DNA of 35,380 nt from an uncultured Verrucomicrobiota bacterium (GCA_903906135.1 CAIVJE010000111.1:1-35380), one strand, 5' to 3'. Shown: positions 13,672 to 25,982, counted from the stretch's first letter. Notes: generated from the letters alone by a model not told the origin. Program-made: numbers and translations.

Positions 13672-14493
13672 ATGCAACCTCTGGCGGTAATGCCGCGGCC
13701 CATCAGCTCATCGTTGCCGGGAAAAAATTATTTCGGCTCCCCTATCTTTCTGCCACGGGAACATGGCGCATGGTCGCTGGCGCTTGAACCGCTCGCGCTG
13801 GGTTTACTCGTGGCGCCCTCGGCGGCGGGCGGGGCGCTGACAGCGACCGCCCTTGCCGGATTTTTCGCCCGCCGACCATTAAGAGCTTTGCTTCGCGGGG
13901 AAACTTCCGCTGACAGGAATTTAACCCGCTTCACTTTAGGCCTACTGACGTTGCTGCTGATTATCGGGCTCATCGAATTAAAATTAATCAGCGGATTCAC
14001 CGCCGCCTGGCCTCTGCTCTTAGCGATACCCTGCGCAGGATTATTTATCTATTTTGACCACCATCATGAATCCCGCGCTGCAGCTGCTGAGCTCGCTGGC
14101 TGCGCCACCTTTGCAATTTTACCCGCGGCCCTCGCCAGTGCGGCTGGCTGGTCGGCCCCGACAGCTTGGGCCCTCGCGGCGCTCGCCCTAGCGCGTAGCC
14201 TGCCTACAGTTTTAACGATTCGCACTTATCTGCGCTTAGAAAAAAATCAGCGCGCCTACCGCAGCCGGCCACTCCTCGCCGGCGTAATCGCCCTCGGCGT
14301 GATCGCAGGACTCGCTCGCGAACAATTGGTCCCAGGGCTCGCTGTCAGTTTTCTCGCCCTATTACTGACTCGCACATTTTGGTTAACGTCAGCGTGGCGC
14401 CCGCATCTTCCCGCTAAACAAATCGGCCTCCAGGAAGCTGGCTTGGGCTTACTGTATCTTGGGGTGCTCGCGTACGCTTATCATCAACAGTAG
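13672..14493 (+). CDS. YwiC-like membrane protein
   Basis: YwiC-like N-terminus (PIFLPREHGAWSLALEPLALGLLVAPS) and multiple hydrophobic helices. Confidence 0.75.
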   Translation: MQPLAVMPRPISSSLPGKNYFGSPIFLPREHGAWSLALEPLALGLLVAPSAAGGALTATALAGFFARRPLRALLRGETSADRNLTRFTLGLLTLLLIIGLIELKLISGFTAAWPLLLAIPCAGLFIYFDHHHESRAAAAELAGCATFAILPAALASAAGWSAPTAWALAALALARSLPTVLTIRTYLRLEKNQRAYRSRPLLAGVIALGVIAGLAREQLVPGLAVSFLALLLTRTFWLTSAWRPHLPAKQIGLQEAGLGLLYLGVLAYAYHQQ

Positions 14494-14529: not shown

Positions 14530-14580
14530 GGGCACGCCGACCCCGCCGTGGTAGGCTCAGCTAGTTCACCACTCTCATCG

Positions 14581-16155
14581 ATGAAAATTAACTCGGTCAT
14601 TGCTCCACCCTCATCCGCTTTTGATCTTATGAAAAATCCGCGCCCACTCACCGCCCTGGCGGTTGTTGTCCTCGTTTTAGCCGCCGCTTTTACCACCGTG
14701 CTGGTTGCCAGCGCTGCAACCGGGCCGGCTGATGCCAAAGGCCCCGTGGTGCTACCACCCGAGCTGGCGAGCATGCCGATTGAGCAAGCCATCCTCACCT
14801 CACCCCCGCATGTCCCACCGGCCATTAAGCGTCAGTATGCGGCTCGTATGGTAGTTAATCTCGAAGTGCGCGAAGTGGTCGCAAAATTGGCCGACGGGGT
14901 TGAGTACACCTTCTGGACTTTCGGCGGCAGCGTTCCCGGATCTTTTATCCGCATTCGCGAAGGGGATGTCGTCGAATTTCATCTCAATAATCACCCGTCC
15001 TCCAAGCTGCCGCACAATATCGATCTCCACGCGGTCACCGGACCTGGTGGCGGGGCGGCCTCAACTTTTACGGCCCCCGGCCATAGCTCGCAGTTTACTT
15101 TTCAAGCCCTCAATCCCGGACTTTATGTCTACCACTGCGCGACGGCCCCGGTCCCAATGCATATCGGCAACGGCATGTATGGCCTCATTCTTGTCGAGCC
15201 GAAGGAGGGCCTCCCCATTGTGGATAAAGAATATTATGTGATGCAGGGCGAGTTCTACACCACCGGCAAATACGGTGAAGAAGGCCTGCAGTCTTTTGAT
15301 ATGGCCAAGGCGATTGATGAGCGTCCGCCCTACATTGTATTTAATGGAGCCGTCGGCTCACTCGTAGGCGACAAAGCGATCACGGCGAAAGTAGGCGAAC
15401 AAGTACGCATCTTCTTCGGTGTCGGCGGCCCCAACATCACTTCTTCGTTTCACATCATCGGGGAAATTTTTGATAAAGTTTACCCTGAGGCCGGACTCTC
15501 ACTGCCTAACCGCCATGTCCAAACCACCCTCGTGCCCTCCGGGGGAGCCACCATGGTTGAATTCAAAGTGGATGTTCCCGGCACCTTTATTCTCGTCGAT
15601 CATTCGCTCACGCGGGCCTTCAACAAGGGTGCGCTCGGTATGCTTAAAGTAACGGGACCCGAAGATCGCGTGATCTACTCCGGTAAAGAAATTGATGCCA
15701 TCTATCTCGGCGCTCAAGCCGAAGCCGGGTCCAACTCGGCTAAACGCGAGGCTGAATTGAAGACGCAAATCGCCGCCGCCATGTCCTCTAATCCCACCAT
15801 CGCTGGTCTCACCAAAGAAATGCAGATCGAAAAAGGCAAACAGGTCTACATGGGGCTCTGCTTTGCTTGCCATCAACCCGACGGCAAAGGCCTCCCGCTG
15901 GCCTTTCCGCCGCTGGCGGGCTCAGATTATTTACTGGCCGATCGCGAACGCGCGGTGCGCACCGTGTTGAAGGGCCTCACGGGCCCGATCACGGTCAACG
16001 GCGTGACGATCAATAGCGTGATGCCGCCCCAAGAAGCCGTTCTCACCGACGCTCAAGTGGCTGACGTGCTCACTTACGTCTACAATTCTTGGGGTAACCA
16101 AGGCGAAGCCTTCACCGCGGCCAAAGTTAAAGCGCTCCGCGCCGAGATTCATTAA
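14581..16155 (+). CDS. nirK: Copper-containing nitrite reductase with C-terminal cytochrome c domain (NirK, three-domain type)
   Basis: T1/T2 Cu ligands [45 protein letters not shown]-terminal heme c motif CFACH. The start is placed at 14581 (or 14629, [13 protein letters not shown] signal sequence) rather than GTG 14548, which lies upstream of the predicted TSS. Confidence 0.93.
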
Positions 16156-18984: not shown

Positions 18985-20403
18985 ATGCACTCTTCGGCTC
19001 CGGCCCTCATCGCTGACCCCTCGATCGACGGATCAGCGGTCAGGATTTCGACGACGAGCACACCAGAGACGCGCATCGCCCGCGCTTGGTTTAAATTCGC
19101 GATTGGTAGCTTAGTCTTGGCTGGTCTACTTTCACTCCTGCTCGTGGTGGGCCGCTTACCTTTTCTTGGTTGGTTATTCACTGATCCCCTTTTTTTTAAA
19201 CGAGCCTTAGTGGTTCACGTCGACTTGGCCATCGTGGTTTGGTTTCAAGCTGGCACCTTAGCTTTCCTGGGACTGGCGCTTGGCCCGCGCTTGCCGCGTG
19301 GTCTGACCGCAGTGTCCTTAGCTCTCGCCGCAACGGGCATCATTGGCTTGCTCGTCGGCGCGCTCATGCCCGGCGCTCAGCCGGTGCTCTCGAATTATGT
19401 GCCGGTCATTGATCATCCCATTTTCTTTGGCGGCCTCATCAGCTGGTTTGCCGGGGCGGGCCTATTTTTCATCCTCGCGTTCACCACGCCAGCTCCCGCT
19501 GGGTTGCAGACGCTCACCGCCGGCACCGTCATCGCGCTCCGCGGTTCGGCCGCCGCTAATGTACTCGCCTTGGTAACTTTTCTCGGGGCATGGCAAACTA
19601 CTCCGGCCGCTGCTCCCGCAATTTATTATGAATTAATTTTTTGGGGAGGAGGTCATGTGCTGCAAGCGGCCAATGTCGCTGCGATGCTCGGCTTGTGGCT
19701 CCAGCTGCTCCACCGCTGGTCGGGGCAGACTATTTTATCATCTACGGCGATTACCGCCCTCATCGCTGCCCTCGTGCTACCGCAACTCATTTTGCCGGTA
19801 CTGGCTTTTAGCGGCACGACAGCGAGCAGTTACTTTTCCATGGCCACGCACCTGATGCGCTGGACTATTTTCCCCGTTGTCTTGGTCGTGCTGTGCGTCG
19901 TGACGACGCACGTCTGGCGCCAACGCGCGGGGCTTAATTGGCGTGATTATCGCTTCATTGGTCTCGCCGGCAGCGCGACCTTAACCGTCTTAGGCTTTAT
20001 TCTCGGCTCGTTAATTCGTCAGTCGAGCACGCTCGTCCCCGGTCATTATCATTGCGCGATCGGCGCGGTCACGCTTGCGCTGATGGCCGCCGCTTATGAT
20101 TTATGTTCAGAGGTCGCGCCGGCTAGCCCCACGCCCGCTCCACCGCGCTATGCTCGACTGCAGCTGTTGCTTTTTGGCGGTGGCCAAGCGGTGTTCGGCC
20201 TCGGCTTTGCTTTAGCCGGCGCTTACGGCCTCGGCCGAAAACAATACGGCATCGACCAGCAGGTCCGCTCCCTCGGCGAGTACCTTGGCCTAAGTATCAT
20301 GGGCCTCGGCGGTCTCGTGGCGGTGGCCGGAGGAATTTTCTTTCTCGCCGTCATGCTTCGCCGTCTCGGCGCCTGGCCCAAACGCCCCACTTCCTTGATT
20401 TAA
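18985..20403 (+). CDS. Heme-copper oxidase subunit I-like protein, degenerate CuB site (paralog of 21134-22837)
   Basis: Polytopic. Retains heme-ligand-like VVHVDLAIVVWF and VPGHYH plus GGGHVLQAANV. The usual HH pair is TH (SMATHLMRW). Confidence 0.8.
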   Translation: MHSSAPALIADPSIDGSAVRISTTSTPETRIARAWFKFAIGSLVLAGLLSLLLVVGRLPFLGWLFTDPLFFKRALVVHVDLAIVVWFQAGTLAFLGLALGPRLPRGLTAVSLALAATGIIGLLVGALMPGAQPVLSNYVPVIDHPIFFGGLISWFAGAGLFFILAFTTPAPAGLQTLTAGTVIALRGSAAANVLALVTFLGAWQTTPAAAPAIYYELIFWGGGHVLQAANVAAMLGLWLQLLHRWSGQTILSSTAITALIAALVLPQLILPVLAFSGTTASSYFSMATHLMRWTIFPVVLVVLCVVTTHVWRQRAGLNWRDYRFIGLAGSATLTVLGFILGSLIRQSSTLVPGHYHCAIGAVTLALMAAAYDLCSEVAPASPTPAPPRYARLQLLLFGGGQAVFGLGFALAGAYGLGRKQYGIDQQVRSLGEYLGLSIMGLGGLVAVAGGIFFLAVMLRRLGAWPKRPTSLI

Positions 20404-20407
20404 TCTC

Positions 20408-20557
20408 ATGAATAACGAACCCAAAATCCATCCGTGGCAGAAGGTACTCGATAACCCTTGGCTGCTGCTCGTGCTCGGCGTCCTCATCCCCATTCTTTCC
20501 TACACCACGTGGGGCTGGATCGAACTTCTCCTCACTCCCCCGGCATTGCTGCCCTGA
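20408..20557 (+). CDS. 49-aa single-TM membrane protein, candidate small oxidase/NOR subunit (IIa-like)
   Basis: Translated by hand: MNNEPKIHPWQKVLDNPWLLLVLGVLIPILSYTTWGWIELLLTPPALLP*. Starts 4 nt after the upstream stop and ends 12 nt before the CuA subunit gene. Absent from the ORF track, apparently because of its length. Confidence 0.75.
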   Translation: MNNEPKIHPWQKVLDNPWLLLVLGVLIPILSYTTWGWIELLLTPPALLP

Positions 20558-20569
20558 CCCTTTCCACCC

Positions 20570-21121
20570 ATGAGCTTACGCCCCCTCACCGCCCCGTGGT
20601 TTCACGGTCCTGCTGGTCACGAAAAAATCTGGCTCGGTTGCGCCATCCTCTGGTGCTTCGTGATGTCACTGATGATGCCTTATTGGCATTTCCGCGGAAA
20701 ACAAAATAGCACGGGCGAAGCCTACACCGTTAAGCCCGCTGATTTTTTTGCGCGCACCGAAAAATTTGTCACAGCTAATCGGGTCGGGACTTTCAAAAAT
20801 CCGATCACGAATCCGATGATGCAGGAGCTGCCGCTGGTGGAACCACCGGCCGGCGGAGACGCCTATCTCATCGGGCGGATGTGGCAATGGTATCCCGCCC
20901 TGCGCCTGCGACTCGGGGAGACTTATCGCTTACACCTGTCGTCCCTTGACTTGCAGCACGGTTTCTCGCTCCAGCCGCTCAATATGAATTTCCAGGTGCT
21001 CCCTGGCTATGACCACGTGCTCACCATCACCCCGACCTCCAAGGGTGAGTTCACCATTGTCTGTAATGAATTTTGTGGCGCGGGTCACCACGCCATGACC
21101 GGAAAAATCTTTGTCGAATAA
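20570..21121 (+). CDS. Cytochrome c oxidase subunit II-like CuA protein
   Basis: One N-terminal TM plus a cupredoxin domain with the full CuA motif: LQHGFSLQPLNMNFQVLPG ... CNEFCGAGHHAM (CxxxCxxxHxxM). Confidence 0.9.
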   Translation: MSLRPLTAPWFHGPAGHEKIWLGCAILWCFVMSLMMPYWHFRGKQNSTGEAYTVKPADFFARTEKFVTANRVGTFKNPITNPMMQELPLVEPPAGGDAYLIGRMWQWYPALRLRLGETYRLHLSSLDLQHGFSLQPLNMNFQVLPGYDHVLTITPTSKGEFTIVCNEFCGAGHHAMTGKIFVE

Positions 21122-21133
21122 TCGCCTCCTCCT

Positions 21134-22837
21134 ATGTCAACTTCCTCTCATTCTCTCGCCGCTCCGGGCACGCCTGGTCGTGTGTGCGGTACCACTGGCC
21201 TCGGGGTTTGTCTCGACGCTCAACGCTTCATTAAACTCAACGCGGTCGTTGGCATTGTCTTTTTGCTGCTTGGGGGCATTGCCGCTTTACTGTTGGCGCT
21301 CACGCGTTGGCAGACCGTTCATTTACTGCCAGTTGACTGGTTTTATCGCCTCCTGACTTTTCACGGGATCAATATGTTGATCCTCTGGATTTTATTTTTT
21401 GAGGTCGCGATCCTCTATTTCGCCTGCACCACGCCGCTCAATGCGCGGCTGTTCTCGCGCAAGGTCGCGTACACTTCATTCGGCATGATGCTCACGGGGG
21501 CCGTCATGGTAGACTACATTATCATCGCCGGCCAAGCCGATGTGATGATGACCTCCTACCTCCCGCTCTTGGCGCATCCCCTCTTTTATCTCGGAATTAT
21601 CCTCGTGGCAGTGGGCACCTTGATTGGCGTGTTTAATTTCTTTGCCACGCTTTACGTGGCCAAACGGGATCGCTCCTATACCGGCTCCGTCCCGATCGTT
21701 ACTTTCGGCGCCACGGCCGCCGCGATCATTGCGGTGGTTACCTTGCTGCACGGCGCCGTGGTGATGATTCCCACTTTCACCTATTCGATGGGGTGGACAC
21801 CGCAACCCGATCCCGCCTGGTATCGCCTGATCTGGTGGGGCCTCGGCCATCAATCGCAACAGGTCAACGTCTGCGCCATGGTGAGCGTTTGGTATTTACT
21901 CACCCATATCGTAGTGGGCTCGCGCCCGATCAATGAAGCGGTCTGTCGAACCGCCTTCGTGCTCTATGTGCTCTTTATCAATCTCGCCTCGGCGCATCAT
22001 CTCCTGGTTGACCCCGGCGTCGGCGCGACCTGGAAAATCTGGAATACTTCCTACGCCATGTACCTCGCCGTGCTGGCTTCGATGGTCCACGGTTTTACCG
22101 TGCCGGCCGGCGTCGAAATCGCGATGCGCGAAAAAGGTTACACCAATGGCATCTTTGGCTGGGTCACCGCACTGCCGTGGAAAAATCCCGCGTTCTCCGG
22201 CACCGCTCTATCAGTCGTGATTTTTGGTTTCCTCGGTGGCATTACTGGGGTGACGCTCGGCACGCAGCAGATTAATATTATTGCCCATAATACGCTGCGC
22301 ATTCCCGGACATTTCCATGTCACCGTCGTCGGCGGCACCACGCTGGCCTTCATGGCTCTCGCCTACTATGTGATTCCTCTCATTTTTCAGCGGGACTTTA
22401 TTTTCCGTCGTGTCGCCCGCATCCAGCCTTGGTTGTTTGGTCTCGGGATTGTGCTGCTCTCATTCGGTATGTCATTTGCGGGCTCGATGGGAGTTTCCCG
22501 CCGGAGTTGGGATATCGATACGCAAGGCGTCTACGGCGCCGCGGCTCATCTTTGGCTCGGCGTACTCGGCATCGGCGGGGTACTCGCTTTTATCGGCCTG
22601 CTGATTTTTGCCCTGCTCTGTGTGGGCACCTTGCTCTTCGGAGAGAAAATTGAAGGCCGCGCAATGGCGGACTGGGGCACGCCTCCCGCTCTCGCCGGCA
22701 GTCAACCGGGCTCACTCGCGCATGACCATTATGCCACCAAGGGAACCATTGTACTGGTGCTTACCTTCCTTGCTTGTTTCGCCGTCTATTATTTTGCGAA
22801 CTGGAAGGCCCTCACGGATGTCTGGCCGGTCCGCTGA
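21134..22837 (+). CDS. Heme-copper oxidoreductase subunit I, probable nitric oxide reductase catalytic subunit (non-cNOR/qNOR type)
   Basis: Heme/Cu ligands TFHGINMLILW, WWGLGHQSQQVN, SAHHLLVDPG, PGHFHVTVVGG. The oxidase Tyr at GH+4 is replaced by Gln. Partnered with a CuA subunit, inside a nirK/RIC/FNR locus. Confidence 0.8.
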   Translation: MSTSSHSLAAPGTPGRVCGTTGLGVCLDAQRFIKLNAVVGIVFLLLGGIAALLLALTRWQTVHLLPVDWFYRLLTFHGINMLILWILFFEVAILYFACTTPLNARLFSRKVAYTSFGMMLTGAVMVDYIIIAGQADVMMTSYLPLLAHPLFYLGIILVAVGTLIGVFNFFATLYVAKRDRSYTGSVPIVTFGATAAAIIAVVTLLHGAVVMIPTFTYSMGWTPQPDPAWYRLIWWGLGHQSQQVNVCAMVSVWYLLTHIVVGSRPINEAVCRTAFVLYVLFINLASAHHLLVDPGVGATWKIWNTSYAMYLAVLASMVHGFTVPAGVEIAMREKGYTNGIFGWVTALPWKNPAFSGTALSVVIFGFLGGITGVTLGTQQINIIAHNTLRIPGHFHVTVVGGTTLAFMALAYYVIPLIFQRDFIFRRVARIQPWLFGLGIVLLSFGMSFAGSMGVSRRSWDIDTQGVYGAAAHLWLGVLGIGGVLAFIGLLIFALLCVGTLLFGEKIEGRAMADWGTPPALAGSQPGSLAHDHYATKGTIVLVLTFLACFAVYYFANWKALTDVWPVR

Positions 22838-22855: not shown

Positions 22856-23875
22856 ATGTCCGCCCCGGACCTCAGCACCTTGGGTCCAACGGCTCAGATA
22901 GAATTTCTGCCCGCCGCTCGCCGCGGTGGCCAAATGGCCACCGCCCGCTTTTTAACCGGGCCCGGCTTGTTAGTTTTTCTCCTGACGGCGCTCGTGAGTT
23001 ACGAAGGCTTTCTGCTGCTAACTATCTTTGGCCCGACCACGGGAAGTTGGCTGGGTGACTTCGTTCGCGATTTTCAACTATGGTGCTATCGTGGAGATCC
23101 GCGCACCGGAGGAGTTTCCTGGTTGGCGGTCTCGGTGATGATGGGCGAACCCCTGTTCGTAGTCGGCCTAGCCGCTCTGCTTTGGCGATCAGCTTTTACC
23201 CAATTAACTTCAATCCGGCCCTGGCAGGCCCACGGGCGCGCCGCCCTCGCGGGATTTGCCCTCATCGTGGGCTGCGCGGGTGGCTTAATGTATTACGCTC
23301 GGAATGATGCGATCCGCGCGCAAATTTTGCCGCCTTTCCCCGGCGAGCGCATTCGCGTGCACCTCGCACTCCCCGCGCTAACCCTGCTCGATCAAACCGG
23401 CACCCCCTTTCGCTTGGCGGATTTGCGCGGCGGCGTGGTGCTAATCACCGGCATCTATGCCGCCTGCACGACTGCCTGCCCAGAAATATTGCTCGAGTTA
23501 AAAAAAATCATGGCGGAATTACCTTCAGCAGAACGGGCAGAGCTGAGCGTGGTCGCGCTGTCGCTTAATCCGGAATATGAAACCACTGCGCTGATGAATC
23601 TCATCGCACAGGGCCACGGCTTTACCCATCCCGAGTTTCGCTATGCTACGAGCTCGTCGCCTGCGGCGATGCACGAAGCACTGACCAGTCTCCAATTTTC
23701 AGCGACGCGCAATCCACAGACCGGCGCGATCGATCACGCGAATCTTTTTCTCTTAGTTGATCGCGATAATCAAATCGCGTATCGCTTCACGCTCGACCCC
23801 CGCCACCGCGCGTGGCTGCGCTCCGCGCTACGAGACCTGCTTCGCGAGCGTCATGTCATCCCCACTGCATCCTGA
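22856..23875 (+). CDS. Multi-TM membrane protein fused to a C-terminal SCO-like domain
   Basis: About three N-terminal TM segments, then LRGGVVLITGIYAACTTACPEILLELKKIMAEL (CxxxCP) and IDHANLFLLVDRD. Confidence 0.8.
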   Translation: MSAPDLSTLGPTAQIEFLPAARRGGQMATARFLTGPGLLVFLLTALVSYEGFLLLTIFGPTTGSWLGDFVRDFQLWCYRGDPRTGGVSWLAVSVMMGEPLFVVGLAALLWRSAFTQLTSIRPWQAHGRAALAGFALIVGCAGGLMYYARNDAIRAQILPPFPGERIRVHLALPALTLLDQTGTPFRLADLRGGVVLITGIYAACTTACPEILLELKKIMAELPSAERAELSVVALSLNPEYETTALMNLIAQGHGFTHPEFRYATSSSPAAMHEALTSLQFSATRNPQTGAIDHANLFLLVDRDNQIAYRFTLDPRHRAWLRSALRDLLRERHVIPTAS

Positions 23876-25982
23876 AGTAGACTGCGCGATCCTCGCGGAA
23901 GCCATGGGACCGACGAACCCGGGGCTGGGTTCAGCCGCCCCACCAGAACCAGTCCGGGCGGCTCGCTTACTGGCGGCCGGCAATGCCGTGGCCACTCGGC
24001 TCGATACTTGGCTGGAACGTTGGTTTCCACGCGAACTCAACCCGCTCGCACAGCTCGGCCCTGCGGCGAATGTCATGCTTTTGCTCGCGACTTTTTCCGG
24101 AGTGTTCCTCCTAATTTGGTATTCACCGAGCACGCAATCAGCTTGGTCTTCGCTCGCCGATCTCGGCCCGCACTCGCTGGGCGGACTTATGCGCAGCATC
24201 CACCGCTACGCTTCTGATTTGCTAATGTTACTCGTGCTGGCCCATGCGCTGCGCACTTTGCTCGCGCGTAAATTTTCCGATGCTCGCTGGCTCGCCTGGG
24301 TCAGTGGCATCGCGCTGGTAGGCCTGATCTGGTTTATTGGATGGACCGGCTACTGGTTAGTGTGGGATGTGCGCGCGCAACTCCTCGCCCTTGATACCAT
24401 CCGCCTGGTGGATGTGCTGCCCCTTTTTGGCGAACCGATGCTCCGCCTGTTCACGGCGGATCACACGGTACCCTCTCTGCTTTTCTTTGTCGTATTTTTT
24501 TTACATATGGTCCTCCCCTTGGGCATCGCCGGAGGACTCTGCCTCCACCTCGCTCGCTTGAGTCGCTCGCCATTACTGCCCAACTGGCGCCTCGCCGTTT
24601 GGTTGATTGGCACGATTATCGTGGCCGCCCTGATTTATCCGGCAGTCAATGCCGAGCCTGCACACCTAACGGTTAAGCCGGATAATTTAAGAATGGATTG
24701 GTGGTATCTCTGGCCATTAACCATCACCGCGCGACTGTCTGGTGGGGGTATCTGGCTCGCTACTCTGCTCGCCACCGCTGGTTTGATGACCGTGCCTTGG
24801 TGGCTCGCCCGCGCACGGCCGCGCGCGATCTATCAAGCGACGGTAAATATTTCGCGCTGCTTCGCCTGCACCTTGTGTTCGCACGACTGCCCGTTTGGCG
24901 CGATTACGATGGTGCCCCGCACTGACGGTAAACCTTTCCCCTCTCAGGCCCAGATCGATGCCGACCGTTGTATCGGCTGCGGCGTCTGCGCAGGAGCGTG
25001 CGATACTCAGGGCATCGGACTTGCCTGGTTCGATGCGCAACAAGTCACCCGTGAGCTCGAAAACTTGATCGTGACGGCAGTTGCGCGCGGTACACCGACC
25101 GCCCTCGCCTTGGTTTGCGCCCAAGCGGATGGGGGCTGGGAATTATTTGCGGCCGCGACGTGGCAGCAGCGCTTACCCGGCTATCTCGTGCGCCCCATTC
25201 CTTGCGTTGGTTGGATCGAACCCAAACTGATCGAGCGGCTCATCAGCAAAGGAGCTACCGCCATCTTGATGGTTGGTTGCGGTTCGAGTGAGCCTTTTTG
25301 CCGCGAAGGCAATCAATGGCTGCCGGCGCGATTAAATGGCACGCGCGAGCCCGCTTTTCGTCCGCAACGGGCCGACCCGCGCAAAATGGCGCAGATTAAT
25401 TTTGATCCCGGGCAACCGCATTTACTCACCGCCGCAGCGATCGCTCTGCGGGAGCAAACGACCCGGCACAAAATACCACGGCCCTCGCATGGCCGAGTCG
25501 GCCTCATGGCTCTCGGCCTGAGCGGACTGCTTTTAACCGCGCTGCTCGTGGTGAGTGATGCTCCCTTTAAAAACCCAGCACCCGCGGCGGCAGAATTCAT
25601 TTTCTCCTTTCGGGCTTATGGCGAATGGGTGTCAGGCGCAGCCCTGGCCTTACCCAATCCCGCCCTCGATCAACGACCGGTGCACATGCGCACGGCACAA
25701 CCCACGCAACGCACCCGCTGGCCGGTCATCGTCCAACTGACCATCGATGGGCAGAGGCAGGAAAAAATTTTCCCGCCAAAAGGATTAAAGTCAGATGGCG
25801 CCTCCGTAGGCGAATTGCGAATTCTGCTTACGCCGGGACCGCATCAAGTCACCGTGCAGCTGCTGACCCAGCCCAAGCGAGAGACTGCGGGGAAAATCTG
25901 GTCCGCCTTGATTAATGCACGATCTAGACATCTCACCGTCCTCACCTTGGAGGCCAATCGCGGGTTTGAATTTGCGCCCTAA
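23853..25982 (+). CDS. Cytochrome b (b6-like) / 2x[4Fe-4S] ferredoxin / MvhD (FlpD)-like domain fusion protein
   Basis: Two HxxxxxxxxxxxxxH heme pairs (HRYASDLLMLLVLAH; HTVPSLLFFVVFFLH); CFACTLCSHDCP and CIGCGVCAGAC; MvhD-like PCVGWIEPKLIERLISKGATAILMVGCGSSEPFCREGN; an extra C-terminal TM plus domain. The start is moved to the internal ATG at 23853, overlapping the SCO gene by 23 nt. Confidence 0.85.
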   Translation: MSSPLHPEVDCAILAEAMGPTNPGLGSAAPPEPVRAARLLAAGNAVATRLDTWLERWFPRELNPLAQLGPAANVMLLLATFSGVFLLIWYSPSTQSAWSSLADLGPHSLGGLMRSIHRYASDLLMLLVLAHALRTLLARKFSDARWLAWVSGIALVGLIWFIGWTGYWLVWDVRAQLLALDTIRLVDVLPLFGEPMLRLFTADHTVPSLLFFVVFFLHMVLPLGIAGGLCLHLARLSRSPLLPNWRLAVWLIGTIIVAALIYPAVNAEPAHLTVKPDNLRMDWWYLWPLTITARLSGGGIWLATLLATAGLMTVPWWLARARPRAIYQATVNISRCFACTLCSHDCPFGAITMVPRTDGKPFPSQAQIDADRCIGCGVCAGACDTQGIGLAWFDAQQVTRELENLIVTAVARGTPTALALVCAQADGGWELFAAATWQQRLPGYLVRPIPCVGWIEPKLIERLISKGATAILMVGCGSSEPFCREGNQWLPARLNGTREPAFRPQRADPRKMAQINFDPGQPHLLTAAAIALREQTTRHKIPRPSHGRVGLMALGLSGLLLTALLVVSDAPFKNPAPAAAEFIFSFRAYGEWVSGAALALPNPALDQRPVHMRTAQPTQRTRWPVIVQLTIDGQRQEKIFPPKGLKSDGASVGELRILLTPGPHQVTVQLLTQPKRETAGKIWSALINARSRHLTVLTLEANRGFEFAP

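Follow-up and report, generated by a model that had tools for sequence, protein, structure and literature searches.

The window analysed here is the whole 35,380-nucleotide stretch of DNA from an uncultured Verrucomicrobiota bacterium (GCA_903906135.1 CAIVJE010000111.1:1-35380; G000:C111 in our numbering). It holds a denitrification region, in which genes for a YwiC-like protein, a NirK-cytochrome c fusion, an FGE/NirV-like protein, an SCO protein and a porin-like protein are followed by six genes that we call A to F (Table 1) and then by genes for a DUF2249 protein, a Crp/Fnr regulator and a RIC-type iron-sulphur repair protein. The closest named record to the window is L001, a MAG labelled 'Opitutaceae bacterium', whose gene A product is 98% identical. 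The NirK-type nitrite reductase carries its cytochrome c domain at the C-terminus and precedes the FGE/NirV-like gene, and the position of this cluster relative to the eNOR operon is mobile among relatives. A YwiC-like membrane protein is also found near eNOR on a Thermus plasmid (L048:11096-12193).

Table 1. Features of the window discussed in the text (positions counted from its first nucleotide).
Feature	Position	Strand	Description
YwiC-like gene	13672..14493		YwiC-like membrane protein
nirK gene	14548..16155		NirK-type nitrite reductase with C-terminal cytochrome c domain; an FGE/NirV-like gene follows
Gene A	18985..20403	+	Heme-copper oxidase subunit I-like, 472 aa, 12 TM helices; by sequence, retains heme ligands but has no CuB site or proton channel
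His224 codon of A	19654..19656	+	TM6, counterpart of D His239; invariant in 43 homologues
Residues 261-267 of A	19765..19785		Mid-TM7 segment
Leu273-Ala274 of A	19801..19806	+	TM7 register where the His-His pair is missing
Thr288-His289 of A	19846..19851	+	'TH' of the first-pass annotation; in TM8; His289 not conserved
Gene B	20408..20558	+	49 aa, single helix
Gene C	20570..21121	+	Cupredoxin subunit II, one TM helix, CuA
Gene D	21134..22837	+	eNOR catalytic subunit I, by sequence
Gene E	22856..23875	+	Hydrophobic N-terminus and SCO1/SenC copper-insertion domain
Gene F	23853..25982	+	Cytochrome b (b6-like), two 4Fe-4S motifs, MvhD/FlpD-like domain; start codon uncertain

The eNOR operon and its catalytic subunit

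Both open reading frames that the first-pass annotation had described as tandem heme-copper oxidase subunit I paralogues, A and D, are present in the same cluster, at the coordinates given there; they are not directly adjacent, as the small gene B and the CuA subunit II gene C intervene. Judged from its residues, D is an eNOR catalytic subunit I with a CuA subunit II, eNOR being the CuA-type nitric oxide reductase related to the B family, and the earlier view of it as intact holds. Its heme and copper ligands are all kept (H77/H395 for the low-spin heme, H393 for the high-spin heme and H239/H288/H289 for CuB), and Gln243 lies four residues after the TM6 ligand His239, where the oxygen reductases have a Tyr. 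A Gln at this position is the diagnostic mark of eNOR (PMC8756737). Gln243, His239, His288 and His289 were invariant in all 44 eNOR sequences aligned, as were Tyr254, Ser316 and His319, with Thr322 found in 42; in our own alignment to ba3, the last four residues sit at the K-channel positions Y248, S309, T312 and T315. The nearest PDB relatives of D are the ba3 oxidases (B family). Gene C supplies the adjoining CuA-type cupredoxin subunit II by which eNOR is also recognized, and its CuA ligands (H130, C165, E167, C169, H173 and M176) are invariant among the aligned homologues. A cultured Opitutales strain with eNor, AB-alg1, respires nitrite to N2O and is annotated with the two-gene eNorAB only (PMC13274419), so that an extra gene, if present there, went unreported.

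Gene B had no match in a Pfam scan, and several eNOR loci from outside the Opitutales have a counterpart preceding the subunit II gene. Gene E is a fusion of a hydrophobic N-terminal part to an SCO copper-chaperone domain. Gene F, whose frame is open from 23757 (start at about 23853), encodes a single protein that comprises a b6-type cytochrome b, two 4Fe-4S motifs and an MvhD/FlpD-like domain and is found with eNOR in several lineages; RME88945.1 has a similar domain set (listed in PMC8756737).

Fold and metal sites of protein A

The proposed paralogy of A and D was borne out by a weak but significant BLASTP match (26% identity over about 435 residues, E about 1e-19), by profile-profile comparison (probability 99.7, E 3.6e-25) and by the alignment of the sequence landmarks quoted in the first-pass annotation. 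The AlphaFold2 model of A, built with 42 homologues (pLDDT 88.7, pTM 0.89), has the 12 helices of the COX1 fold that characterizes subunit I of the heme-copper oxidase superfamily. All 38 of its PDB matches below E 0.001 are heme-copper subunit I chains, the best by TM-score being ba3 subunit I (3s8f_A, TM 0.74); searches of the PDB by sequence returned no relatives, even with a profile. PF00115 (COX1) is the sole Pfam match of A (above cut-off, E 6e-13), and a search of Pfam and NCBIfam with the 42 homologues at E values up to 1 gave COX1 as the only significant Pfam family and nothing relevant in NCBIfam. Membership of a known NOR accessory family, which had been named beforehand as an outcome that would overturn the earlier reading, was thus not found among these models, and the candidate identities of this kind, such as NnrS and NorD, were rejected. 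A tblastn search for A on plasmids gave no match.

Four histidines of A (H78, H224, H354 and H356) are invariant in all 43 sequences, in agreement with the earlier remark that the heme-type histidines are retained. By equivalence with D, H78 and H356 form the low-spin heme pair, H354 is the proximal ligand of the high-spin heme and H224 is the TM6 CuB ligand, so that the TM2 His and TM10 His-x-His expected of a catalytic subunit I are found in 43 of 43. R345, R418 and K419 on the propionate side are equally invariant, as are Q227, N230, T288 and E216.

Heme-copper oxidase active sites use three histidines for CuB/FeB, and A keeps only the one in TM6. TM7 of D spans residues 268-291 (24 residues), with His288 and His289 at offsets 20 and 21; TM7 of A (253-276) is of equal length, and the same offsets fall on L273 and A274. 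Across the 43 homologues position 273 is Leu, Phe or Val and position 274 is Ala, Thr, Ser or Pro, with His at neither. The first-pass annotation had read the pair as half lost ('TH instead of HH'), which proved to be a misalignment: in the confident model T288-H289 lies inside TM8 (281-312), aligned with A315/S316 of D, and while T288 is invariant, residue 289 is His in 24 sequences, Gln in 8, Arg in 6 and A, L, E, W or F in the others. The model and the 43-sequence census together reject 'TH' as a remnant of the pair, and two CuB ligands are missing rather than the single one supposed. Correct alignment did not restore the missing His, the other outcome named beforehand as overturning the earlier reading, and instead left the site more degenerate. 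Alignments of TM7 disagree with each other, MAFFT leaving the His-His of D unpaired and hhalign pairing it with P266-Q267 of A; residue 267 is Gln in 26 homologues, His in 16 and Tyr in one, so that one TM7 His is at most arguable in distant homologues (those with His at 267) and none in the window protein.

The Gln that marks eNOR is absent, as had been noted: residue 228, at its position, is Ala here (A228), and all 43 sequences have V, A, T, I or C. A loss absent from the earlier description concerns the proton channel, where Y254, S316, H319 and T322 of D are replaced by L239, H289, R292 and I295. By these residues, the active site and proton supply of A are gone and its heme sites retained. 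With two CuB ligands, the Gln and the K-channel missing in every homologue, there is strong support for the earlier view that A is neither a standard oxidase nor a standard NOR. Within TM7, the segment of residues 261-267 includes an invariant P266 and a Gln or His at 267 in 42 of 43, and lies mid-helix, two turns below the lost His-His.

Linkage, conservation and origin of gene A

When 388 Verrucomicrobiota genomes were searched with the profile, A turned up in eight, each of them a member of the same order and carrying D as well; a ninth, G074 from another family, has D only, with no A elsewhere in its genome. Among 373 Opitutales genomes sampled, D was found in 31, A in 32 and both in 30. 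The three singletons are contig-edge truncations: in the D-only genome (G445) the contig ends just upstream of B and the N-terminus of A lies at the edge of another contig, and in the two A-only genomes (G649 and G695) A is truncated where its contig stops, on the side on which B-D would be expected. The order A-B-C-D-E-F is constant in 22 loci, as far as the contigs reach, and in the loci of the order that were examined, spanning at least five families, unlike the NirK, porin, Crp and RIC genes, which are moved or missing among relatives. We rejected assignment of A to the nirK cluster, which many relatives have at another place or lack altogether, A remaining with eNOR. Outside the Opitutales, the four eNOR loci examined (G074, Defluviimonas, Thermomicrobium and Thermus) have B-C-D and no adjoining A, indicating that A is an add-on of the Opitutales eNOR and that eNOR in general does not need it.

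With membrane sides assigned by homology with the subunit I topology, the mean pairwise identity of A is 0.69 in periplasmic and 0.31 in cytoplasmic loops, and 0.67 and 0.50 in the corresponding helix halves, a pattern consistent with A binding heme and docking a partner at its periplasmic face while having no function at the cytoplasmic one. Only the comparison of the window with L002 has unsaturated dS, and there dN/dS is 0.135 (A) and 0.005 (D); in more distant pairs, in which dS is saturated, the values for A are 0.08-0.13. These ratios indicate purifying selection on A, which evolves several times faster than D. Its intact reading frame, the dN/dS of 0.135 and the fixed operon led us to reject A as a pseudogene.

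In the tree, the A sequences form one clade (100/100) that branches, with a very long stem, from among the eNOR sequences; its closest relative there is eNOR subunit I. An alternative tree with all eNOR in one clade was not rejected (AU test, p 0.28), and an origin of A inside eNOR, where the tree places it, and an origin as the sister of eNOR are both compatible with these sequences. The A and D trees show matching groupings of the same genomes, judged by eye, as expected from joint vertical descent.

Proposed role of A and comparison with known systems

We propose, at a probability of roughly one half, that A is a catalytically inert, heme-bearing paralogue of D serving as an extra, lineage-specific subunit of the Opitutales eNOR, most likely in electron relay or dimerization on the periplasmic side. 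From its ligands, A would bind both hemes, the second probably having H224 as its sixth, distal ligand or else lying in a closed pocket. It would pack beside the B-C-D enzyme to form an unequal subunit I pair, in which the two periplasmic-side hemes of A may act as an electron relay or store serving the CuA/heme chain of D, with NO reduction presumably carried out by D alone. The well-conserved periplasmic loops of A and its variable cytoplasmic side would suit docking and electron transfer at the periplasmic face. We are least confident of the relay step. The accessory, electron-relay and heterodimeric pseudo-enzyme roles suggested in the first-pass annotation fit the fixed linkage to eNOR and the conservation of the heme ligands. 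Against a subunit of eNOR stand the single CuA subunit encoded, which leaves no evident electron entry route into A, the faster evolution of A than of D, and the four outside eNOR loci that lack it. The fuller picture, in which the Opitutales enzyme combines a catalytic subunit I with a different, inert paralogue still carrying both hemes, and A is an evolved heme-relay half-enzyme, is more tentative and somewhat short of an even chance.

The same residues could serve other ends. Without CuB, the former high-spin heme might bind NO, so that A would act next to eNOR as a buffer, antenna or sensor for NO in the membrane; the invariant proximal His354 and the invariant cluster of the TM6 His, Gln227 and Asn230 would suit such a pocket, and the locus lies inside a nitrite/NO gene cluster with NirK, a Crp/Fnr regulator and a RIC repair protein. 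However, A has no signalling domain, the invariant H224 may itself fill the distal site, and ferrous heme holds NO too tightly for easy hand-over, which leaves this pseudo-enzyme unlikely. About equally unlikely is a factor for eNOR assembly or stability outside the working enzyme, one that loads heme or copper or acts as a scaffold for folding: an operon shared with the SCO protein E and the lineage-specific, added nature of A would agree with it, but the invariance of heme ligands and propionate-side residues across 43 homologues implies a bound heme, and eNOR elsewhere has no adjoining A.

That A instead pairs with F, the cytochrome b/4Fe-4S protein, in a complex of their own that delivers electrons to eNOR seems improbable, for although F is in the same operon in all complete loci, its relatives stand alongside eNOR without A in G074 and Defluviimonas. 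We give very little credence to catalysis by A at a metal site of a new or reduced kind, such as heme with H224 and residue 267. The invariance of H224, Q227, N230, T288 and E216 and the Gln or His at 267 in 42 of 43 sequences could be read this way, but at most two histidines lie near the site, the proton channel is lost, and the nearby residues are unlike those of any NOR.

If the proposed subunit role of A is correct, this order-wide operon with an inert, heme-bearing copy would show a respiratory catalytic subunit turning into a partner subunit, and would offer a natural system in which heme binding stands apart from CuB catalysis and from proton pumping. The product of eNOR, N2O, is a greenhouse gas, and NOR gene surveys by subunit I homology could miscount the inert copy. 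Apart from generic COX1, no curated family of Pfam or NCBIfam describes A, and our literature search for an inert heme-copper subunit I or an extra eNOR subunit, whose scope did not extend to the original eNOR publication (Murali et al., PNAS 2024), found no paper with an inert subunit I beside NOR. To our knowledge, heme-copper enzymes have one catalytic subunit I type per complex, and we know of no other superfamily member with two different subunit I paralogues in one enzyme.

Elsewhere in the same genome, a degenerate CcoN-like subunit I of 481 aa (L027:1369-2814, minus strand; G000:C78:22005-23447) lies beside CcoO- and CcoP-like cytochromes. Its His-His is replaced by Ser-Arg and its TM10 His-x-His is lost; homologues are found in 69 of 103 genomes of the order, and 9 of 15 aligned keep the His-His pair, so that the loss is confined to some members. 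Like A, it is subunit I-like and has lost the TM7 His pair, but it belongs to the C family (cbb3-like), has lost its TM10 heme ligands as well and is unlinked to NOR genes.

Compared with eNOR subunit I, A has the superfamily and fold in common but lacks the TM7 His-His, the diagnostic Gln and the K-channel. The eNOR described earlier has two subunits (PMC8756737), whereas the operon here carries an extra subunit I paralogue. The ba3-type cytochrome c oxidase (B family) matches the operon here in having a small subunit and a CuA subunit of one helix each; relative to ba3 subunit I, A lacks the CuB ligands, the active-site Tyr and the K-channel. Unequal pairs of related subunits are familiar from CydA/CydB and PsbA/PsbD, with which A and D may be compared. 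CydA/CydB of cytochrome bd is, like D and A, an unequal related membrane pair with one catalytic member, by analogy only and not homology: the bd family is unrelated to A and D, A keeps its heme ligands, and its complex with D is a proposed one.
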